Positions 5,202-59,932 of a DNA stretch of 64,000 nucleotides are shown here, one piece after another. The position numbers and the translations under genes were made by a program. Source of the stretch: Telluria aromaticivorans (GTDB lineage Bacteria > Pseudomonadota > Gammaproteobacteria > Burkholderiales > Burkholderiaceae_D); NCBI RefSeq assembly GCF_013003915.1, contig NZ_JABAIV010000002.1, forward strand, positions 248,001-312,000, given 5' to 3'. Numbering within the stretch: position 1 is the first letter of the stretch; each line of letters starts with the position of its first letter. A model generated the notes under the pieces. It had not been told where the DNA came from and made no database searches. It worked only from the letters and a program-made list of their open reading frames with translations.

Positions 5202-6377
5202 ATGGCATCTTTCTTCCAGCGTCCTGCCGCGTCCCGTTGTTTCCTGCCCTTCTTTCTTCTTTTTGCGATGGCCAAGCCTGTCCACGCCCAGCCGTCCACC
5301 GAGCTGGCCGAACTGCGGGCGCGCCAGCTCGAGGCGGAAACGCGCCAGGCAGTGGCCGAAGCCGAACGCGCCGAACTGCTGGCGCGCCTGCCCCCGGCCC
5401 AGTCCAAAGCCCTGGCCGGCACGGTGGACACGCGCCAGTTCGGCACCGCCGGGCTGGTCCGCGCTTTCGACCTGGCACGCGAGCTCGCCGGTGAACTGTG
5501 CGCGCAGCTGCCCGCCGACCGCCAGGCCGCCCTCTACGACCCAACCACGGCCCAGGGCATGGTGGCGGCCCGTACCGTGGACAGCGCCCTCTCCCGCCTG
5601 TCGAGCGACATGGCCGCCAAGAACAAGGAACTCCAGCTTTACCTCGACACCAACCGCCCGCCCGGCTCCGGCGCGGCCGCGCTGCCACTGGCGGTGTTGG
5701 CCGTCGTGCCCGCGACCGTGCGCGCCGGCGCCGACATCGCCGCCTTGCTGCGCAGCGACGTGGCAGCAAGCGGCATCGGCTATGGCGAAGGTGCGCGCAG
5801 CCTGTTCGCCAGCGCCCTGGCGCAAGCCTGCCCGGGCCGCATCAGCGGGCTGGGCGCCGGCTATCTTGGCGAGCTCGACTGGGCGCGCTACGAGAAGCTG
5901 CTGGGCCGGGTCGGCGCACTTGCCGGGCACCGCGCCGCCTACGCCGGGCGCATCACCGAGCTGCAGGGCCTGGTCGATGCCGTCAAGGGCGAGCAGAAGA
6001 AGGAATTCGCCGCGGTGGCGCAGGCGGCGCTGGCGCAACTCAAGGTGGTCGATACCTTCGTCGATTCGCTCAAGGCGGGCGAAGCCAGCGAAAAAAGCCC
6101 GCTGTTCAACGCCGCCCGCTACCTTGGCTACAGCGAACGTACCGCCGGCAGCCTGGTGCTGGATGCCGACCTGCGGCTGGAAGGCTTGGCCATCGTGAAG
6201 GAAAACCTGTTCACGGGCCAGCACCTGCGCCTGTCCGGCGTGGCCTTTCTCTGGTACCGGCTGCACGAAGCGGACGGCCGCCTGCTGCGGGCCGAGGCGC
6301 TGCGCCGGATCACCCGGCCGGTGGAAGTCGACCTGCGCGGAACCGGCGCGCCGGATACCTTCTGGTCCGGTCCGTAG
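5202..6377 (+). CDS. Exported protein of unknown function
   Basis: I do not recognise this 391-residue protein. It starts with a signal-peptide-like segment (hydrophobic CFLPFFLLFAMA, likely cut after VHA near residue 29). A heptad-like charged helix of about 40 residues follows, rich in Glu, Ala and Arg (ELAELRARQLEAETRQAVAE). The rest is Ala/Leu-rich, probably helical, with a short hydrophobic run around residues 165-185. It is divergent from the WecA-type gene across a 250-bp A+T-rich spacer. Its TAG stop lies inside the first bases of a dispersed GTAGGG repeat. A periplasmic or envelope location is inferred from the signal sequence only. Confidence 0.75.
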   Translation: MASFFQRPAASRCFLPFFLLFAMAKPVHAQPSTELAELRARQLEAETRQAVAEAERAELLARLPPAQSKALAGTVDTRQFGTAGLVRAFDLARELAGELCAQLPADRQAALYDPTTAQGMVAARTVDSALSRLSSDMAAKNKELQLYLDTNRPPGSGAAALPLAVLAVVPATVRAGADIAALLRSDVAASGIGYGEGARSLFASALAQACPGRISGLGAGYLGELDWARYEKLLGRVGALAGHRAAYAGRITELQGLVDAVKGEQKKEFAAVAQAALAQLKVVDTFVDSLKAGEASEKSPLFNAARYLGYSERTAGSLVLDADLRLEGLAIVKENLFTGQHLRLSGVAFLWYRLHEADGRLLRAEALRRITRPVEVDLRGTGAPDTFWSGP

Positions 6378-6545
6378 GGTGGGCGGCTACACCGTTCTGG
6401 GTGATTAACTGGCAGGTTCGAGCCGCCCGCGCGTTCAAACCACGGTGATAAGCATGCTCCGCGGTTTGCATACGTTCCTTGAACGCGCGGGCGGCGCACA
6501 CGGTACGGGATAATCCCCTGCACAGGTGCAGCCGCCCACCCCACG
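6374..6545. repeat. GTAGGGTGGGCGG-family inverted repeat, copy 1
   Basis: Starts GTAGGGTGGGCGGCT and ends AGCCGCCCACCCCACG, giving an outer inverted repeat of about 15 bp. An inner pair reads GCCGCCCGCGCGTTCAA and TTGAACGCGCGGGCGGC. It fills the whole spacer between two convergent genes, and the upstream gene takes its TAG stop from the repeat edge. Confidence 0.85.
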
Positions 6546-8660: not shown

Positions 8661-8971
8661 GGGACTTTCTTCGGAAACGGTGGTACGGCCGTGATGTCAC
8701 CTGAGTGACATTACGGATTTTCAACAGTTTCGCGGAAAAAACGGATGCGTGTCGCACCGCTTGCGGCGGTGCAACATCGGCAAGGGGGTATGTTGCTTTG
8801 GTAGGGTGGGCGGGGTCATTGCGGGCAATGCCCGGAATGACGAACGCCCGCGCGTTCAACCAGTGGCAAGATCATCGTGCCAGGTATTTCAGCCACAAGC
8901 GATCACCGCGTGGGCGCACAGCAGGCCACCGGCCTGCTGTGCCCTGCCCACCCTACGGTGTGCGGCAATTC
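8661..8971. other. Spacer between pldA and rsuA, mostly repeat
   Basis: About 140 bp upstream of pldA would hold its promoter; I could not fix -35/-10 boxes with confidence. The remainder is repeat copy 2 (8801-8956). No coding sequence is supported. Confidence 0.5.
8801..8956. repeat. GTAGGGTGGGCGG-family inverted repeat, copy 2
   Basis: Begins GTAGGGTGGGCGGGGTCATT and ends CTGCCCACCCTAC. It carries the internal palindrome around GCGGGCAATGCCCGGAATGAC and a hairpin near the right end (CAGCAGGCC/GGCCTGCTG). Its ends match the other copies. Confidence 0.85.
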
Positions 8972-12637: not shown

Positions 12638-12748
12638 GTAGGGTGGGCGGGTTTACCGCCCACGCGGTGATAGTTAACGGATGAATAGTCGTGCGGGATG
12701 ATCTTGCGGCCGCTTGAACGCGCGGGCGGGAAAACCCGCCCACCCTAC
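12638..12748. repeat. GTAGGGTGGGCGG-family inverted repeat, copy 3
   Basis: A compact 111-bp copy with arms GTAGGGTGGGCGGGTTT and AAACCCGCCCACCCTAC, perfectly complementary apart from small spacing differences. The interior contains CCGCCCACGCGGTGATAG and GAACGCGCGGGCGGG. It lies between rluC and the HAD gene. Confidence 0.9.
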
Positions 12749-17576: not shown

Positions 17577-17708
17577 AACTTGGGTCCCGGCCTGCGCCGG
17601 GACGACGGTTTTTAAGTTAGAGGTACAAACAGCGCAAACTTTTTACCCGCTCCCCCGGCACGTCATCCCGGCGAAGGCGGAAGCAATGCCACCGGCCTTG
17701 CTTCCGCC
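17577..17708. repeat. GGTCCCGGCCTGCGCCGGGA-type repeat, copy 1
   Basis: The 31-bp left arm (17577-17607) is identical to the complement of the right arm of the copy at 54681-54792. The right half begins CACGTCATCCCGGCG but then diverges into a separate hairpin, GGCGGAAGCAA/TTGCTTCCGCC (17676-17708). Confidence 0.7.
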
Positions 17709-20198: not shown

Positions 20199-22070
20199 AT
20201 GGACAAGAAACTCATTACAGGACTGGTCCTGGCGGGCGGGCGCGGCTCGCGCATGGGCAATGTGGACAAGGGCCTGCAGCCCTTCCGCGGCAGCACGATG
20301 GCCCAGCATGTGATCGACCGGCTCGTGCCACAGGTCGGCAGCGTCATGGTCAACGCCAACCGCAACCTGGAAGCCTGGCTGGAACTCGCTGCCCCCGTGT
20401 GGGCCGATGAAACGGCCGGTTTCGCGGGTCCGCTGGCCGGGCTGGAAGCCGGACTGCGCCACTGCGTCACTCCATGGCTGCTGGCCGTGCCCTGCGATTC
20501 GCCCTTCCTGCCGCAAGACCTGGCTGTCAGGCTGGCCGCCGCGGTCGAAGACGCGGACGCCGACCTCGCCTTCGCCGTGACCCAGGAGCCCGGCATGCGC
20601 CCGCAGGCGCATCCGGTGTTCTGCCTGGTGAAGGCGAGCCGGCTGCCGGTGTTGTCGCAGTATCTTGCCGAGGGCGGACGGCGCATGGATGGCTGGTACA
20701 AGGGCCTGAAGGCGGTCGAGGTATTGTTCGACGATGCCGATGCCTTCCGCAACATCAACACGCTCGAAGAGCTGCACGTGTTGGACGACACGCTGCCGCC
20801 GACGCTGGCCAAGGTAACCAGCTGCCTGGACGGCTACGACCCGGACGCGCTGCCGGTGCGCGACGCCCAGCGCATCATCCGAGACTTCGTCCAACCCGTG
20901 CGTTCGATCGAAAAGGTCGCGCTGCGCGCTGCGCTGGGCCGTGTGCTCGCTGTAGATGTCATCTCGCCGATCGACGTGCCTGCGCACGACAATTCGGCGA
21001 TGGATGGCTTTGCGCTGCGTGGCGACGACCTGCTTGTCGATACGCCGGTGACGCTGCGGGTGATCGGCACGGCTTTCGCCGGCAATCCGTCCGGCCTCGT
21101 TCCGCAATCGGGCGAATGCGTGCGCATCATGACGGGCGGCGTCATGCCCCTTGGCTGCGACAGCGTGGTGCCGCAGGAATTCGTCAAGCAGGATGGCGAC
21201 AGCATCAGCCTGGGCGCCGGCGTGATCCGCCCTGGCGACAACCGCCGCTTCGCCGGCGAAGACCTGAAAGCCGGCAGCGAAGCACTCAAGGCCGGCCGCA
21301 TCGTGCGCCCGGCCGACCTGGGCCTGCTGGCATCGCTCGGCATGCCCGAAGTCGCGGTGCAGCGGCGCCTGCGTGTCGCTTTCTTCTCGACCGGCGACGA
21401 GCTGCGTTCCGTCGGCGAACCGCTTATTGAGGGCTGCGTCTACGACAGCAACCGCTACACGATCTACGGCATGCTGCAGCGCCTGGGCTGCGACTTCATC
21501 GATATGGGCGTGGTGCGCGACGACCCGCAAGCGCTGGAAGACGCCTTGCGCAGCGCCTGCGAGAACGCGGATGCCATCATCACCTCGGGCGGGGTCTCGG
21601 TCGGCGCGGCCGACTATACCAAGCAGGTCATGGGCAAACTCGGCGACGTGACTTTCTGGAAGATCGGCATGCGCCCCGGGCGCCCGCTGGCCTTTGGCCG
21701 CATCAAGTCGAACGGCCGCAGCGCTTTCCTGTTCGGCCTGCCGGGCAATCCGGTGGCGGTGATGGTGTCCTTCTACTTCTTCGCGCGCGAAGCGCTGCTG
21801 CGCATGATGGGCGCCGACGCCCCGCTGCCCCTGCTGCGCGCACGCTCGAGCGTAGCGATCCGCAAGAAGCCCGGCCGCACCGAATACCAGCGCGGTATCC
21901 TGTCGCAGGGTGCGGACGGCCAGCCAGAAGTGCGCATCACCGGCTCGCAAGGTTCGGGCATCCTGCGCTCGATGTCCGAGGCGAACTGCATGGTGGTGTT
22001 GCACGACGAGCAGGGCAATGTCGTGACGGGCGACATGGTCGATGTCTTAATATTTGAGGGTTTGATGTAG
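20199..22070 (+). CDS. MobA-MoeA fusion protein
   Basis: One uninterrupted 623-residue frame joins two Mo-cofactor enzymes usually encoded separately. Residues 1-195 are MobA (guanylyltransferase), with LVLAGGRGSRMGNVDKGLQP and the metal site PCDSPFLPQD. From about residue 200 it is MoeA (molybdate insertase), with PAHDNSAMDGFAL, RIMTGGVMPLGCDSVV, FFSTGDELR, ITSGGVSVGAADYT and GLPGNPVAVMV. The junction VLDDTLPPTLAKVTSC shows no stop or Met. MoeA makes Mo-molybdopterin, which MobA then converts to the guanine dinucleotide form, so fusion could channel the intermediate. The TAG stop coincides with the edge of a dispersed repeat. Confidence 0.93.
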   Translation: MDKKLITGLVLAGGRGSRMGNVDKGLQPFRGSTMAQHVIDRLVPQVGSVMVNANRNLEAWLELAAPVWADETAGFAGPLAGLEAGLRHCVTPWLLAVPCDSPFLPQDLAVRLAAAVEDADADLAFAVTQEPGMRPQAHPVFCLVKASRLPVLSQYLAEGGRRMDGWYKGLKAVEVLFDDADAFRNINTLEELHVLDDTLPPTLAKVTSCLDGYDPDALPVRDAQRIIRDFVQPVRSIEKVALRAALGRVLAVDVISPIDVPAHDNSAMDGFALRGDDLLVDTPVTLRVIGTAFAGNPSGLVPQSGECVRIMTGGVMPLGCDSVVPQEFVKQDGDSISLGAGVIRPGDNRRFAGEDLKAGSEALKAGRIVRPADLGLLASLGMPEVAVQRRLRVAFFSTGDELRSVGEPLIEGCVYDSNRYTIYGMLQRLGCDFIDMGVVRDDPQALEDALRSACENADAIITSGGVSVGAADYTKQVMGKLGDVTFWKIGMRPGRPLAFGRIKSNGRSAFLFGLPGNPVAVMVSFYFFAREALLRMMGADAPLPLLRARSSVAIRKKPGRTEYQRGILSQGADGQPEVRITGSQGSGILRSMSEANCMVVLHDEQGNVVTGDMVDVLIFEGLM

Positions 22071-22764
22071 GGTGGGTGGCTCTGCCGCCCACGCGGTCAA
22101 CGTTTGATCGGCCACACATCGCCTTTTGGATGCTGCCCTACGATGCGCCGATGTCCTCCTATCGCCGCGCCTTCACCGGCACTTCCTACTTTTTTACGGT
22201 CGTGACTCACGACCGGGGCCCCATCCTGTGCGATGAGCCTGTACGCCAAGCCCTACGCTCTGCGATCAAACGGGTTCGACTGCGCCTCCCGTTTCAGACC
22301 GATGCGATGGTGCTGATGCCGAATCATCTGCACTGCATCTGGACGCTACCAGATGGCGATACCAACTTCTCCACACGATGGTCGCAGATCAAGCACGACG
22401 TTTCCTACATGTGCCGCGACTTGTACCCCGCATCGTTGTCCAGATCGCGACAGCGCCAGCGCGAAGCGCCGATTTGGCAGCGCAGGTTTTGGGAACACCA
22501 GCTTCATGACGAGCACGATATGGAACGCCATATCGATTACATCCACTTCAATCCAGTGAAACATGGGTTGATCCAAGCGGCGTCGGCGTGGACGTATTCG
22601 ACGTTTGCGAGATATGTTCGTGAGGGGATTTATGCGCCGGATTGGGGTGGCAATCCGGAGTGTGAAGACATGAGGTTCGAATAAGCAGCGCGAGGACGCA
22701 TCCGTTCGACAGCGTGGGCGTTCGTAATTCCGGGCATTGCCCGGAATTACCCCGCCCACGCTAC
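22067..22764. mobile_element. Repeat-bounded RAYT element
   Basis: The 698-bp unit starts GTAGGGTGGGTGGCTCTGCC and ends with a palindrome (AATTCCGGGCATTGCCCGGAATT) and CCCCGCCCACGCTAC. Both ends match the dispersed repeats found elsewhere in the window, and between them lies only the RAYT gene. It looks like the gene-bearing version of a family whose other copies are short and gene-free. Confidence 0.75.
22151..22684 (+). CDS. REP-associated tyrosine transposase (RAYT)
   Basis: A 177-residue Y1-type single-strand DNA nuclease/transposase of the IS200-like superfamily. The N-terminus MSSYRRAFTGTSYFFTVVTH is characteristic of RAYTs. The HUH motif is HLH in MLMPNHLHCIW, and the presumed catalytic Tyr is in HIDYIHFNPVKHGL. 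The start at 22151 aligns with family N-termini; upstream codons lie in the repeat. Characterised RAYTs bind and cut REP palindromes and are domesticated rather than self-mobile. It is preceded by mobA-moeA and faces convergent rmuC. The frame looks intact. Confidence 0.9.
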   Translation: MSSYRRAFTGTSYFFTVVTHDRGPILCDEPVRQALRSAIKRVRLRLPFQTDAMVLMPNHLHCIWTLPDGDTNFSTRWSQIKHDVSYMCRDLYPASLSRSRQRQREAPIWQRRFWEHQLHDEHDMERHIDYIHFNPVKHGLIQAASAWTYSTFARYVREGIYAPDWGGNPECEDMRFE

Positions 22765-22766
22765 CG

Positions 22767-24086
22767 TCACTCATCAATATCCGATCTTTCCGAGCCGAGC
22801 AGTAGTTGCGCCGCTTCGGCCGGCAAGGCTTCCACCGACTTCAATTTTTTCGCCATGGCGCGGCTGCGCACTTCGGCGCCTTCGATGTTCCTGGCGGCCT
22901 TTTCCAGGGTTGCCTTGGTGGTCGCCAGCACATCACCGAACTTGGTGAACTCGGTCTTCACCGCGCCAAGCACCTGCCACACTTCGGACGAGCGCTTTTC
23001 CAGCGCCAGCGTGCGGAAGCCCATCTGCAGGCTGTTGAGCAGTGCGGACAGGGTCGACGGGCCGGCAATCGACACGCGCAGGGTGCGTTGCAGGTCGTCG
23101 GCCAGGCCGGGACGGCGCATCACTTCCGCATACAGGCCTTCGGTCGGCAGGAACAGGATCGCGAAGTCGGTGGTCTGGGGCGGCGACACGTATTTCTCGC
23201 AGATGGTCTTGGCTTCCAGGCGCACCGCGCGTTCCAGCTCGGCGCCGAAGCGTGCCACGCCGTCGGCGTCGGCCCGGTCGGCGGCTTCCAGCAGGCGTTC
23301 GTACTGCTCTTTCGGGAACTTGGCGTCGATCGGCAGCCACAGGGGCGCGCCGCCATCAAGCACACCCGGCAGCTTGATCGCGAATTCCACCCGCGCGCCG
23401 GTGCCGGCGACGGTCTCCACGTTCTTGGCATACTGGTCATTGGTGAGCACCTGCTCGAGCAGCATCTCGAGCTGCACTTCGCCCCAGGTGCCGCGGGTCT
23501 TGACGTTGGTGAGCACCCGCTTCAGGTCGCCCACGCCGATCGCCAGCTGCTGCATCTCGCCCAGGCCCTGGTGCACCTTGTCGAGCCGGTCGCTGACCTG
23601 TTTGAAGGATTCGGTCAGGCGCGTTTCCAGCGTGGCGTGCAGCTTTTCATCGACGGTCTGGCGCATCTCTTCCAGGCGCTTCGCATTGTCGTTCTGCAGG
23701 TCGCGGATCTTGGTTTCCAGCGTGCCGCGCACTTCCAGCATGCGTTGGGCGTTCGATTCGGTCAGGTTCGACAGGGTCTGCTGCAGCGTGTCGGCGAAGC
23801 GCTTGAGCGCGCGCGCCTGCTCTTCGCGGCCGCTGCTCGATTGCAGCTGCATCTGCTGGCGCATGCTGTCGAACTGCTGCACGCCGGCGGCATGGTACTG
23901 GCCCATGTGCCCTGCCATCTCCTGGCGCGTGGCCTGGGCGGTGGATTGCAGCTCCAGGCGCAGCTCGCGCTCCAGGCGTTCGATGTGGCGGCCGTCGCCT
24001 GCATTGCGGGCGCGGTGAAGTAACAGCAGCTGCAGGACGATGATGATGAGTGCAGCCAGCACGATCAGGAGTTCAATGAATCCCAT
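22767..24086 (-). CDS. rmuC: DNA recombination protein RmuC
   Basis: RmuC restrains recombination at inverted repeats and carries a predicted PD-(D/E)XK-type nuclease fold. The 439-residue product has an N-terminal membrane anchor (LIVLAALIIIVLQLLLLH), a long coiled coil of about residues 35-180, and the conserved domain with RGTWGEVQLEMLLEQVL, PIDAKFPKEQYERLLEA and FLPTEGLYAEV. It begins 1 bp downstream of the globin gene's end boundary on the same strand. It lies against a RAYT repeat element, an interesting neighbour for a protein linked to inverted-repeat stability, although this may be chance. Confidence 0.94.
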   Translation of the reverse strand: MGFIELLIVLAALIIIVLQLLLLHRARNAGDGRHIERLERELRLELQSTAQATRQEMAGHMGQYHAAGVQQFDSMRQQMQLQSSSGREEQARALKRFADTLQQTLSNLTESNAQRMLEVRGTLETKIRDLQNDNAKRLEEMRQTVDEKLHATLETRLTESFKQVSDRLDKVHQGLGEMQQLAIGVGDLKRVLTNVKTRGTWGEVQLEMLLEQVLTNDQYAKNVETVAGTGARVEFAIKLPGVLDGGAPLWLPIDAKFPKEQYERLLEAADRADADGVARFGAELERAVRLEAKTICEKYVSPPQTTDFAILFLPTEGLYAEVMRRPGLADDLQRTLRVSIAGPSTLSALLNSLQMGFRTLALEKRSSEVWQVLGAVKTEFTKFGDVLATTKATLEKAARNIEGAEVRSRAMAKKLKSVEALPAEAAQLLLGSERSDIDE

Positions 24087-38585: not shown

Positions 38586-38737
38586 GTAGCGCGGGCAGGG
38601 CTGTTGAGTCCAGTGGACTCAACAGCGCCCGCGCGTTCAAATCACGATTGCGTTCACGCGCCACGGCAAATTACACGGACGTTGAACGCGCGGGGTGATC
38701 TGATCCAGTGGACCAGATCACGAGCCGCCCACCCTAC
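38586..38737. repeat. GTAGGGTGGGCGG-family inverted repeat, copy 5
   Basis: Begins GTAGCGCGGGCAGG (two changes from consensus) and ends GCCGCCCACCCTAC. Two internal palindromes, GTTGAGTCC-AGT-GGACTCAAC and GTGATCTG...CAGATCAC, both have CCAGTGG in the loop. The conserved GCCCGCGCGTTCAAATCACG and GTTGAACGCGCGGG segments are present. Confidence 0.8.
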
Positions 38738-46350: not shown

Positions 46351-46484
46351 GTAGCGTGGGCGGGGTAATTTCGGGCGATGCCCGGAATTACAAACGCCCA
46401 CGCGGTGATAGCGAACGCTTCAGCAGCCGCACGGGCAGTGCCACCGTGATTTGACCGCGTGGGCGGGAGGCCCGCCCACGCTAC
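46351..46484. repeat. GTAGGGTGGGCGG-family inverted repeat, copy 6
   Basis: The arms GTAGCGTGGGCGGG and CCCGCCCACGCTAC are perfect complements; both carry the same G-to-C variant relative to consensus, so the two ends have changed together. The internal palindrome TTTCGGGCGATGCCCGGAA and ACGCGGTGATAG are conserved. Confidence 0.88.
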
Positions 46485-54680: not shown

Positions 54681-54792
54681 AACTTGGATCCCGGCCTGCG
54701 CCGGGATGACGGTTTTTAGGTTGGCAACTTACGACAGCATCTTCGCCCTGCGTCCCTAGCACGTCGTCCCGGCGCAGGCCGGGACCCAAGTT
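54681..54792. repeat. GGTCCCGGCCTGCGCCGGGA-type inverted repeat, copy 2
   Basis: A 112-bp element between convergent genes. The 31-bp arms at 54681-54711 and 54762-54792 are complementary except at two positions, and each arm holds the palindrome TCCCGGCCTGCGCCGGGA or its variant. The right arm is identical in sequence to the left arm at 17577-17607. Confidence 0.85.
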
Positions 54793-59621: not shown

Positions 59622-59932
59622 GTAGGGTGGGCGGGGTAATTCTGGGCAATGCCCCAATGCCAGTCAAGTAGTGAGAACGTAGGGTGGGCAGGTTTCCTGC
59701 CCACGCGGTGATAGTTGCAATGTAAGCAGCCGCACGGGCTGCAGCAAAGTGGTTTTAACGCGTGGGCAAGGAACTTGCCCACCCTACGAGTCACGGGCAG
59801 CTCTTAAGTGACTGGCATTAGGGCAATGCCCGAAATTACAAACGCCCGCGCGTTCAAATCACGGTACTGCAGCCTGTGCGGCTATTCAAATCGCAACGAT
59901 CACCGCGCGGTCGGCGAAGCCGACCACCCTAC
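59622..59932. repeat. Nested GTAGGGTGGGCGG-family repeats
   Basis: The outer copy runs from GTAGGGTGGGCGGGGTAATT at 59622 to ACCACCCTAC at 59932. It is interrupted by a complete second copy, GTAGGGTGGGCAGG...CTTGCCCACCCTAC (59679-59787). The inserted segment (59655-59820) is flanked by the 11-bp direct repeat GGGCAATGCCC (59644-59654 and 59821-59831). Near its own ends it carries the inverted pair AATGCCAGTCA/TGACTGGCATT. Confidence 0.85.

Follow-up and report, generated by a model that had tools for sequence, protein, structure and literature searches.

A Massilia-type REP/RAYT system in Telluria aromaticivorans, with a RAYT gene enclosed by the inverted repeats dispersed through its genome

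Here we describe a repeat system in a stretch of 64,000 nucleotides from Telluria aromaticivorans (contig NZ_JABAIV010000002.1, positions 248,001 to 312,000), hereafter the window, in which a gene for a REP-associated tyrosine transposase (RAYT) lies between two inverted repetitive extragenic palindromes (REPs) of the kind found by the hundreds elsewhere in the genome. The gene occupies 22151..22684 on the forward strand and encodes 177 amino acids, and the unit that holds it, a REPtron running from GTAG to CTAC, spans 698 bp on the same strand (22067..22764). A first-pass annotation, made from the letters alone, had read this arrangement as a REP/RAYT-type system whose gene is enclosed by the same inverted repeats that are scattered nearby; the gene, its ends and the copies were located as it described, and its reading is supported by the RAYT family tests, the enclosing inverted REPs and the hundreds of gene-free REP tips. 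We are highly confident that this is a Massilia-type system belonging to the known REP/RAYT kind. Comparison of relatives suggests, as far as sequences can speak to it, that the unit may still be moving or being exchanged, contrary to the view of RAYTs as domesticated and vertically inherited.

The protein belongs to the RAYT family. The NCBIfam profile NF047646 (REP_Tyr_transpos) matches it at 183.3 bits, against a cut-off of 80, and the Pfam family Y1_Tnp matches it at 28.1 bits, against a cut-off of 23. At E values up to 1 its sole relative of solved structure is E. coli TnpA_REP (PDB 4er8; E=9.7e-38). In the alignment with 4er8, the segments NHLHCIW and DYIHFNPVKHG place both histidines of the histidine-hydrophobic-histidine (HUH) motif, here HLH, and the catalytic tyrosine opposite their counterparts, which bears out the RAYT hallmarks previously claimed for the gene. 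The closest named relative is from Massilia sp. 9I, at 81% identity, in a search that may omit very near records.

The ends of the unit are GTAG-footed REPs in inverted orientation, with GTAG at 22067 and CTAC at 22761-22764. The upstream REP (22067..22094, forward strand) is short, with a GTAG foot, a stem and a loop of 5 nt. The downstream REP (22712..22764, reverse strand) is inverted and has a long head that carries a 27-nt apical palindrome (22724..22750; palindrome family D14). Because the left stem has a T opposite a G, the window locus shows a strictly defined hairpin on one side only.

Across the 5.23-Mb genome, the REP tip GTAGSGTGGGCRG occurs 251 and 277 times on the two strands, 528 in all, against 1 and 3 (4 in all) for the reversed pattern, which is the high copy number expected of a REP. 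The arrangement of the tips was studied in an 864-kb sample made up of the window and 40 further stretches, the first 20 of which were chosen at known tips, so that no density is derived from it. Among its 169 tips, neighbours less than 400 bp apart formed 62 outward-facing pairs, 10 inward-facing and 5 tandem, and 30 of the 62 outward pairs are 104-114 bp long, with a mode of 108 bp. Such a preferred length is characteristic of REP doublets forming hairpins (REPINs), and most of the dispersed elements, which the first-pass annotation had called miniature units, are thus REPINs made of two outward-facing REPs; they gain length where one of the REP heads has an additional palindrome. At the moeA/rmuC junction and the other sites inspected, the REPs are extragenic.

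Each REP consists of a GTAG or GTGG foot followed by a palindrome, as in REPs of the GTAG type, with the core GTAGGGTGGGC and a G.G mismatch near the foot in 30 of 34 heads. The 151 complete REPs of the sample divide into 115 with a short loop and 36 with a long head, so that the internal palindromes such as CCGGGCATTGCCCGG that the first-pass annotation ascribed to these elements are real but confined to a subset of REP heads. The 36 long heads yield 25 distinct palindromic heads of the kind GTAATTCAGGCCAATGGCCTGAATTAC, which by eye point either way with respect to the GTAG foot. In these 25 apical heads, 307 of 325 cells (94.5%) are Watson-Crick pairs, against a shuffled mean of 70.2% (maximum 76.3%); in 34 distinct short heads the figure is 292 of 340 (85.9%), against 75.2% (maximum 79.7%), so both kinds of stem covary. 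After the stem, the REP tails are of two main types, CGCGTTCAA (78 of 151) and CGCGGTGAT (43 of 151), both of which occur within single REPINs; a tail CGCG(T/G)TCAA is, by eye, common to REPINs and RAYT units.

Three further ideas about these repeats were tried and set aside. The apical palindromes are not a separate dispersed element in the 864-kb sample, where such heads are seen in REP context: 78 of 133 palindromes lie near a REP tip, and the other 55 comprise a few REPs with degenerate tips (by eye), several members of a family centred on GCCASTGGC, and sequences that look like terminators or coding DNA. That REPIN interiors in general descend from the ends of RAYT units is only suggestive, because the shuffles used as control (2.25 matches expected, against 23 of 151 interiors matching at 16 or more of 28 positions) do not preserve the conserved REP tail. 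Single-linkage clustering of the interiors, which put 46 of 56 in one cluster at 70%, is uncontrolled and is not used as evidence.

Within the window itself there are 18 matches to GTAGGGTGGGCGG with at most 2 mismatches, whereas 100 shuffles gave a mean of 2.38 and a largest count of 7, none reaching 18. The gene-free elements whose ends had been said to match those of the RAYT unit do so at the listed copies, with one exception: the element at 6374..6544, whose left REP has a 44-nt core, ends on the right in GTGG and not in GTAG. The REPINs at 8801..8956 (156 bp) and 38586..38737 (152 bp) bear apical palindromes in both heads, that at 46351..46484 (134 bp) has a single one, and a further REPIN of 111 bp lies at 12638..12748. 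The copy that had been listed as 59622/59679 is present as well, but it is two things: a REP pair at 59622..59932 and, nested inside it, a separate REPIN of 109 bp (59679..59787) that by eye interrupts the left head, lodged within its apical palindrome. There GGGCAATGCCC flanks the inserted stretch on both sides, and the stretch itself is bordered by AATGCCAGTCA and TGACTGGCATT (by eye). A different palindromic repeat, with the core TCCCGGCCTGCGCCGGGA, is present in two copies (17577-17618 and 54681-54722, 93% identical), and pieces with palindromes centred on GCCASTGGC recur across the 864-kb sample. An Rfam scan of the window returned tRNA only, and the REPs match no Rfam family there.

The genome holds four matches to NF047646, three of them above the cut-off. 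A second RAYT (L001/L185, on G000:C23), with a protein 71% identical to that of the window, is also enclosed by inverted REPs of the same kind, so that the single gene-bearing unit of the first-pass annotation becomes two in the genome as a whole. In this second protein the first histidine of HUH is replaced by tyrosine (DYLH, hence Y-L-H), and because of this the window RAYT may, judging from the motif, be the sole working RAYT of its clade in this genome. A remote RAYT (L003, 34% identical) has a REPIN nearby and is not enclosed by these REPs, and a remote RAYT-like protein of 255 aa (L004, on G000:C22), below the NF047646 cut-off, lies among other repeats, adjoining repeated units of the type CTCTGACCC(C/T)(A/G)ATT.

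Enclosure of the gene by REPs is general. In the genus, a stricter first flank finder saw both ends in only 27 of 60 loci and was replaced by a criterion applied to 54 full-length loci (the 60 less 5 fragments and one locus at a contig end): an outward GTAG/GTGG hairpin stands on both sides in 37, on one side in 11, among them the window locus, and on neither in 6, against 1 of 117 control windows. Across many phyla, 71 of 80 loci had room on both sides, and GTAGGG(T/C)(G/T) hairpins were found on both sides in 32, on one in 15 and on neither in 24 (control 0 of 265); with any GTAG/GTGG foot the same 71 loci gave 42, 23 and 6 (control 20 of 265). In loci L035-L114 the REPs on either side of RAYTs of this clade start with GTAGGGTG, in loci labelled as Chloroflexi, Planctomycetota, Deltaproteobacteria and Gammaproteobacteria alike, with a differing inner stem. 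The arrangement matches that published for REPtrons, to judge from the available text of those accounts (PMC2817692, PMC3733652).

The unit of the window fills the gap between two convergent genes, a mobA/moeA-like gene on the left (20199..22070, forward strand) and an rmuC-like gene on the right (22767..24086, reverse strand), both named by inspection and both used as anchors for the locus; the TAG at 22068-22070, part of the upstream GTAG, doubles as the stop codon of the moeA-like gene. This junction was surveyed in 51 of the 61 genomes of the genus. Of 46 RAYT loci compared in the genus, 21 have the moeA-like gene on one side and the rmuC-like gene on the other; 7 of these share the orientation of the window and 14 have the opposite one. 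The 30 further genomes yielded 29 loci. Five of these have intervals below 60 bp (G030 2, G051 13, G003 14, G021 34 and G023 48 bp). G036 (105 bp) and G007 (112 bp) carry a gene-free REPIN, as by eye do G001 (153 bp) and G041; G024 and G048 have RAYT fragments. Eleven more contain other sequence, and 7 gave no resolvable interval.

Orientation must change 5 times on the RAYT tree (which leaves out L188, L190, L193 and L196, as each repeats a place, and L235-L247) and 5 times on the tree of the flanking proteins, which adds two fragments. Neighbours of opposite orientation on the RAYT tree include L116 and L119 (99/76) and L124 and L125 (100/99). When the first pair is aligned from moeA to rmuC, positions 146-817 of L116 match 832-150 of L119 in reverse at 80%, while both flanks are collinear; the same block reversal is seen in L124/L125, L134/L137, L129/L137 and L120/L119, and it is therefore the whole GTAG-to-CTAC unit that is turned. 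In L116 and L119 each loop type keeps its position relative to the gene, GGGTTTCCC lying upstream in the two loci and GGCTTTGCC or GGCTATGCC downstream; for this one pair, the exchange is thereby placed within the outer 13 bp or at the tip.

The borders of the unit are exact in one comparison, that of an occupied with an empty site: the 679-bp units of L129, L132 and L133, flanked by GATCTAG and TCGTCC, face GATTTAATCGTCGG in L217 (G030), with neither duplication nor loss of bases, a trait of insertion sequences of the IS200/IS605 type. G030 is the nearest neighbour of the occupied G008 on the flanking-gene tree (100/95), and its nesting among occupied genomes suggests exact loss, an imported patch being possible. 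The occupant can also differ. G031 (L129) and G040 (L204) are sisters by their flanking proteins (100/99), but their RAYTs fall in different parts of the RAYT tree, the REPs are GGACGG in L129 and GGGCACCCC in L204, and the insertion points differ. Another pair of this kind may be G002 with G014 (100/98), although their RAYTs form the two long branches of the tree and their placement is unsure.

Other RAYT sites show similar alternatives, though not all of them do. At the site of the second RAYT, between a response regulator and a glycosyltransferase gene, ten relatives have intervals of 7, 18 and 19 bp (G003, G015, G036), REPINs (G026, G013, G053), a REP or REP hairpin (G046, G041) or short other sequence (G001, G007). 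At the site of a RAYT of G026 (L186), G003 and G046 have a gene-free REPIN, with its GTAG as far from the neighbouring stop codon as in G026 (7 nt, measured from the first base of the codon); no REP stands there in G000, G001, G007, G013, G015, G041 or G053, and G036 has other sequence. The REPIN of G003 (L260) matches the 3' subterminal stretch of the G026 RAYT unit at 27 of 32 positions by eye, a resemblance which suggests the product that internal deletion of a RAYT unit would give. At the L117 site, compared in eight relatives, a REP hairpin of 28 nt is present in G041, and in G000 the interval is longer and includes a GTAGGGTGGTCGG tip; the other six either show no REPIN in the sequence compared or have no resolved interval. 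Alternation between REPIN and RAYT unit is therefore not universal.

Copy number follows the RAYT. In 37 of the 61 genus genomes (G000-G036) four REP variants were scored; the list of genus RAYT loci is a lower bound, and presence or absence of a RAYT refers to the matches listed. The summed count of the four variants has a median of 175 (range 0-532) in the 25 genomes with a full-length RAYT of the clade and of 46.5 (range 0-91) in the 12 without (p=2e-5). The effect is specific to the variant, each being commoner where it flanks a RAYT: GTAGSGTGGGCRG (8 against 29 genomes, p=7.7e-5), GTAGGGTGGACGG (10 against 27, p=1.1e-4), GTAGGGTTGGCGG (1 against 36, p=0.015) and GTAGGGTGGGCAC (3 against 34, p=0.0074). 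These p values ignore kinship and are too small, because the genomes are related.

From these observations, and from what is known of its family, we infer how the system would work. The RAYT, as an HUH single-tyrosine nuclease, would recognise the GTAG-footed REP hairpin in single-stranded DNA and nick beside it, and in this way would copy or move units bounded by two outward-facing REPs; most such units would be gene-free REPINs of about 108 bp, and the 698-bp unit of the window would be the same thing with a RAYT gene inside. Several observations weigh against RAYT-driven spread. The upstream REP of the window unit falls short of a strict hairpin, so that one of its two ends has drifted. G041 has 135 tips of GTAGSGTGGGCRG with no clade RAYT among the matches listed, which partly bears out the refuting case named at the outset, many copies without a RAYT, although G013, its nearest relative by flanking genes, has one; likewise without a clade RAYT among the matches listed, G006, G010 and G011 have 82, 62 and 70 tips of one variant and G032 and G033 have 43 and 56. 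G014 has 382 tips of GTAGSGTGGGCRG while its own RAYT is flanked by another variant, and G029 has a full-length clade RAYT and none of the four variants. For Pseudomonas, too, the available text of PMC3686654 describes exceptions to REP abundance following the RAYT. The remote RAYT L003, also present in the window's own genome, could act on the same REPs, and a RAYT match of 32-39% occurs in at least 55 of the 61 genus genomes, these being matches and not established L003 orthologues. Together with G041 and the few genomes like it, this would favour a history in which the remote RAYT, or else replication slippage or gene conversion, spread the repeats and the window RAYT is a passenger. Yet the abundant variant tends to be the one that flanks the RAYT, L003 is not enclosed by these REPs, and a similar remote match (37%) is present in G005, where tips of all four variants number zero; we regard the passenger history as improbable.

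How the RAYT units themselves come to be where they are is less settled. We propose tentatively, at somewhat less than an even chance, that the Massilia RAYT is carried by a REP-ended unit that is still live. Such a unit would go in and out exactly at gene ends, in either orientation, could be replaced by one of another RAYT lineage, and would alternate at the same junctions with REPINs, some of which would be its internal-deletion products. Changes of site, flips, the exact empty site and replacement on near-identical flanks fit poorly with simple vertical inheritance in place. A RAYT that is domesticated and vertically inherited, in an immobile unit with flanking REPs that merely reflect an intergenic space filled with REPINs, would agree with RAYTs being single-copy, vertically inherited and unable to copy themselves, as the available text of PMC8049555 has it. 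It would agree too with the five shared sites (B, C, D, E and F, of 2-5 loci each) that each keep one orientation, and with the ten genomes holding at least two full clade RAYTs, where the closest copies are at most 77% identical and not near-identical as in the insertion sequences (IS) of the IS200/IS605 family. The sample thus shows no recent duplication; if the units move at all, they do so rarely, conservatively or through transfer between strains. Against domestication, the first 9 nt after GTAG are equal on both sides of the RAYT in 22 of 27 loci (those of the stricter finder) despite stems that vary from species to species, the unit is inverted as a whole, one and the same interval is occupied in the sister loci of G031 and G040 by RAYTs from different clades, each with its own REPs, and the RAYT tree requires 18 changes of site class against a minimum of 7 (shuffled mean 29). 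We consider domestication unlikely. Host homologous recombination, acting between the inverted REPs or on imported DNA with crossovers in moeA and rmuC, could have made the inversions and swaps in place of the RAYT, and to this we give a serious but less than even chance. Inversion needs no more than inverted repeats, and the enclosing REPs are such repeats. Identity falls on both sides over the 100 bp closest to the junction (86 and 83% in L129/L204, 84 and 78% in L132/L217), so that short imported patches are possible, a reading tempered by the low identity that L132/L133, which share the unit, likewise show on the rmuC side. Only one pair, L116/L119, is informative here: its loops stay with the RAYT side, which confines the exchange to the outer 13-bp arm or the tip; 13 bp is short for RecA recombination. 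Beyond the first 100 bp, moreover, the flanks of L129/L204 and L131/L203 are 87-99% identical although the RAYTs differ.

Much of this is already published: the enclosing arrangement, the GTAG foot, the TAG stop codons and the copy number that follows the RAYT. The following comparisons are with the available text of each source. In the REPtrons of Nunvar 2010 (PMC2817692) and Di Nocera 2013 (PMC3733652), as here, a gene lies between two inverted GTAG-footed REPs, the REPs are dispersed, often as doublets, and the GTAG termini yield TAG stop codons. Long self-complementary loops are also known from other REPs, the GTAG-14 elements of Bradyrhizobium having such loops of up to 27 bp (PMC3733652). 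The core described above, with its G.G mismatch, sets the present REPs apart from those of these two accounts. Neither Massilia nor Janthinobacterium is named in the main text of PMC3733652. In a thin check no name for the repeat was found, GTAGGGTGG being absent from that main text, with its consensus figure outside the comparison, and term searches of the literature found no paper on Massilia REPs among the records listed. The REPIN of Bertels and Rainey 2011 (PMC3116915) is the same inverted REP doublet as a mobile unit served by a RAYT in trans; in the present genus, REPINs and RAYT units share a tail, and the G003 REPIN resembles the end of the G026 unit. The orthoswitch of Nunvar 2013 (PMC3686654) likewise involves syntenic RAYTs with different REP classes in related strains, an occasional RAYT at a novel site, and REP abundance that follows the RAYT with exceptions; here, unlike there, at least one change swaps the whole unit, including the clade of the RAYT, on near-identical flanks, and not only the REPs. 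E. coli TnpA_REP (4er8; PMC8266576), the best solved relative, likewise has a GTAG foot and a mismatch in the REP stem. The genus agrees with PMC8049555 that RAYTs do not copy themselves and disagrees on simple vertical inheritance in place. Inversion of the unit, and RAYT unit, REPIN and empty site as alternatives at one junction, do not figure in the published REPtron accounts (PMC2817692, PMC3733652) as far as their available text goes, and literature searches, covering such text, found no account of RAYT-unit inversion or of such alternation.

At stake are the origin of REPINs and the status of RAYTs, which may be domesticated host genes or may still belong to an element that moves. If the proposal of a live unit is true, a REPIN and a RAYT unit would be two states that a single docking site can take. 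The moeA/rmuC junction, which is nearly empty in some genomes and holds a REPIN or a RAYT unit facing either way in others, offers a natural test site for arrival, loss and flipping, and the REP variants, often matching on both sides of their RAYT, provide natural pairs of protein and target for working out recognition.

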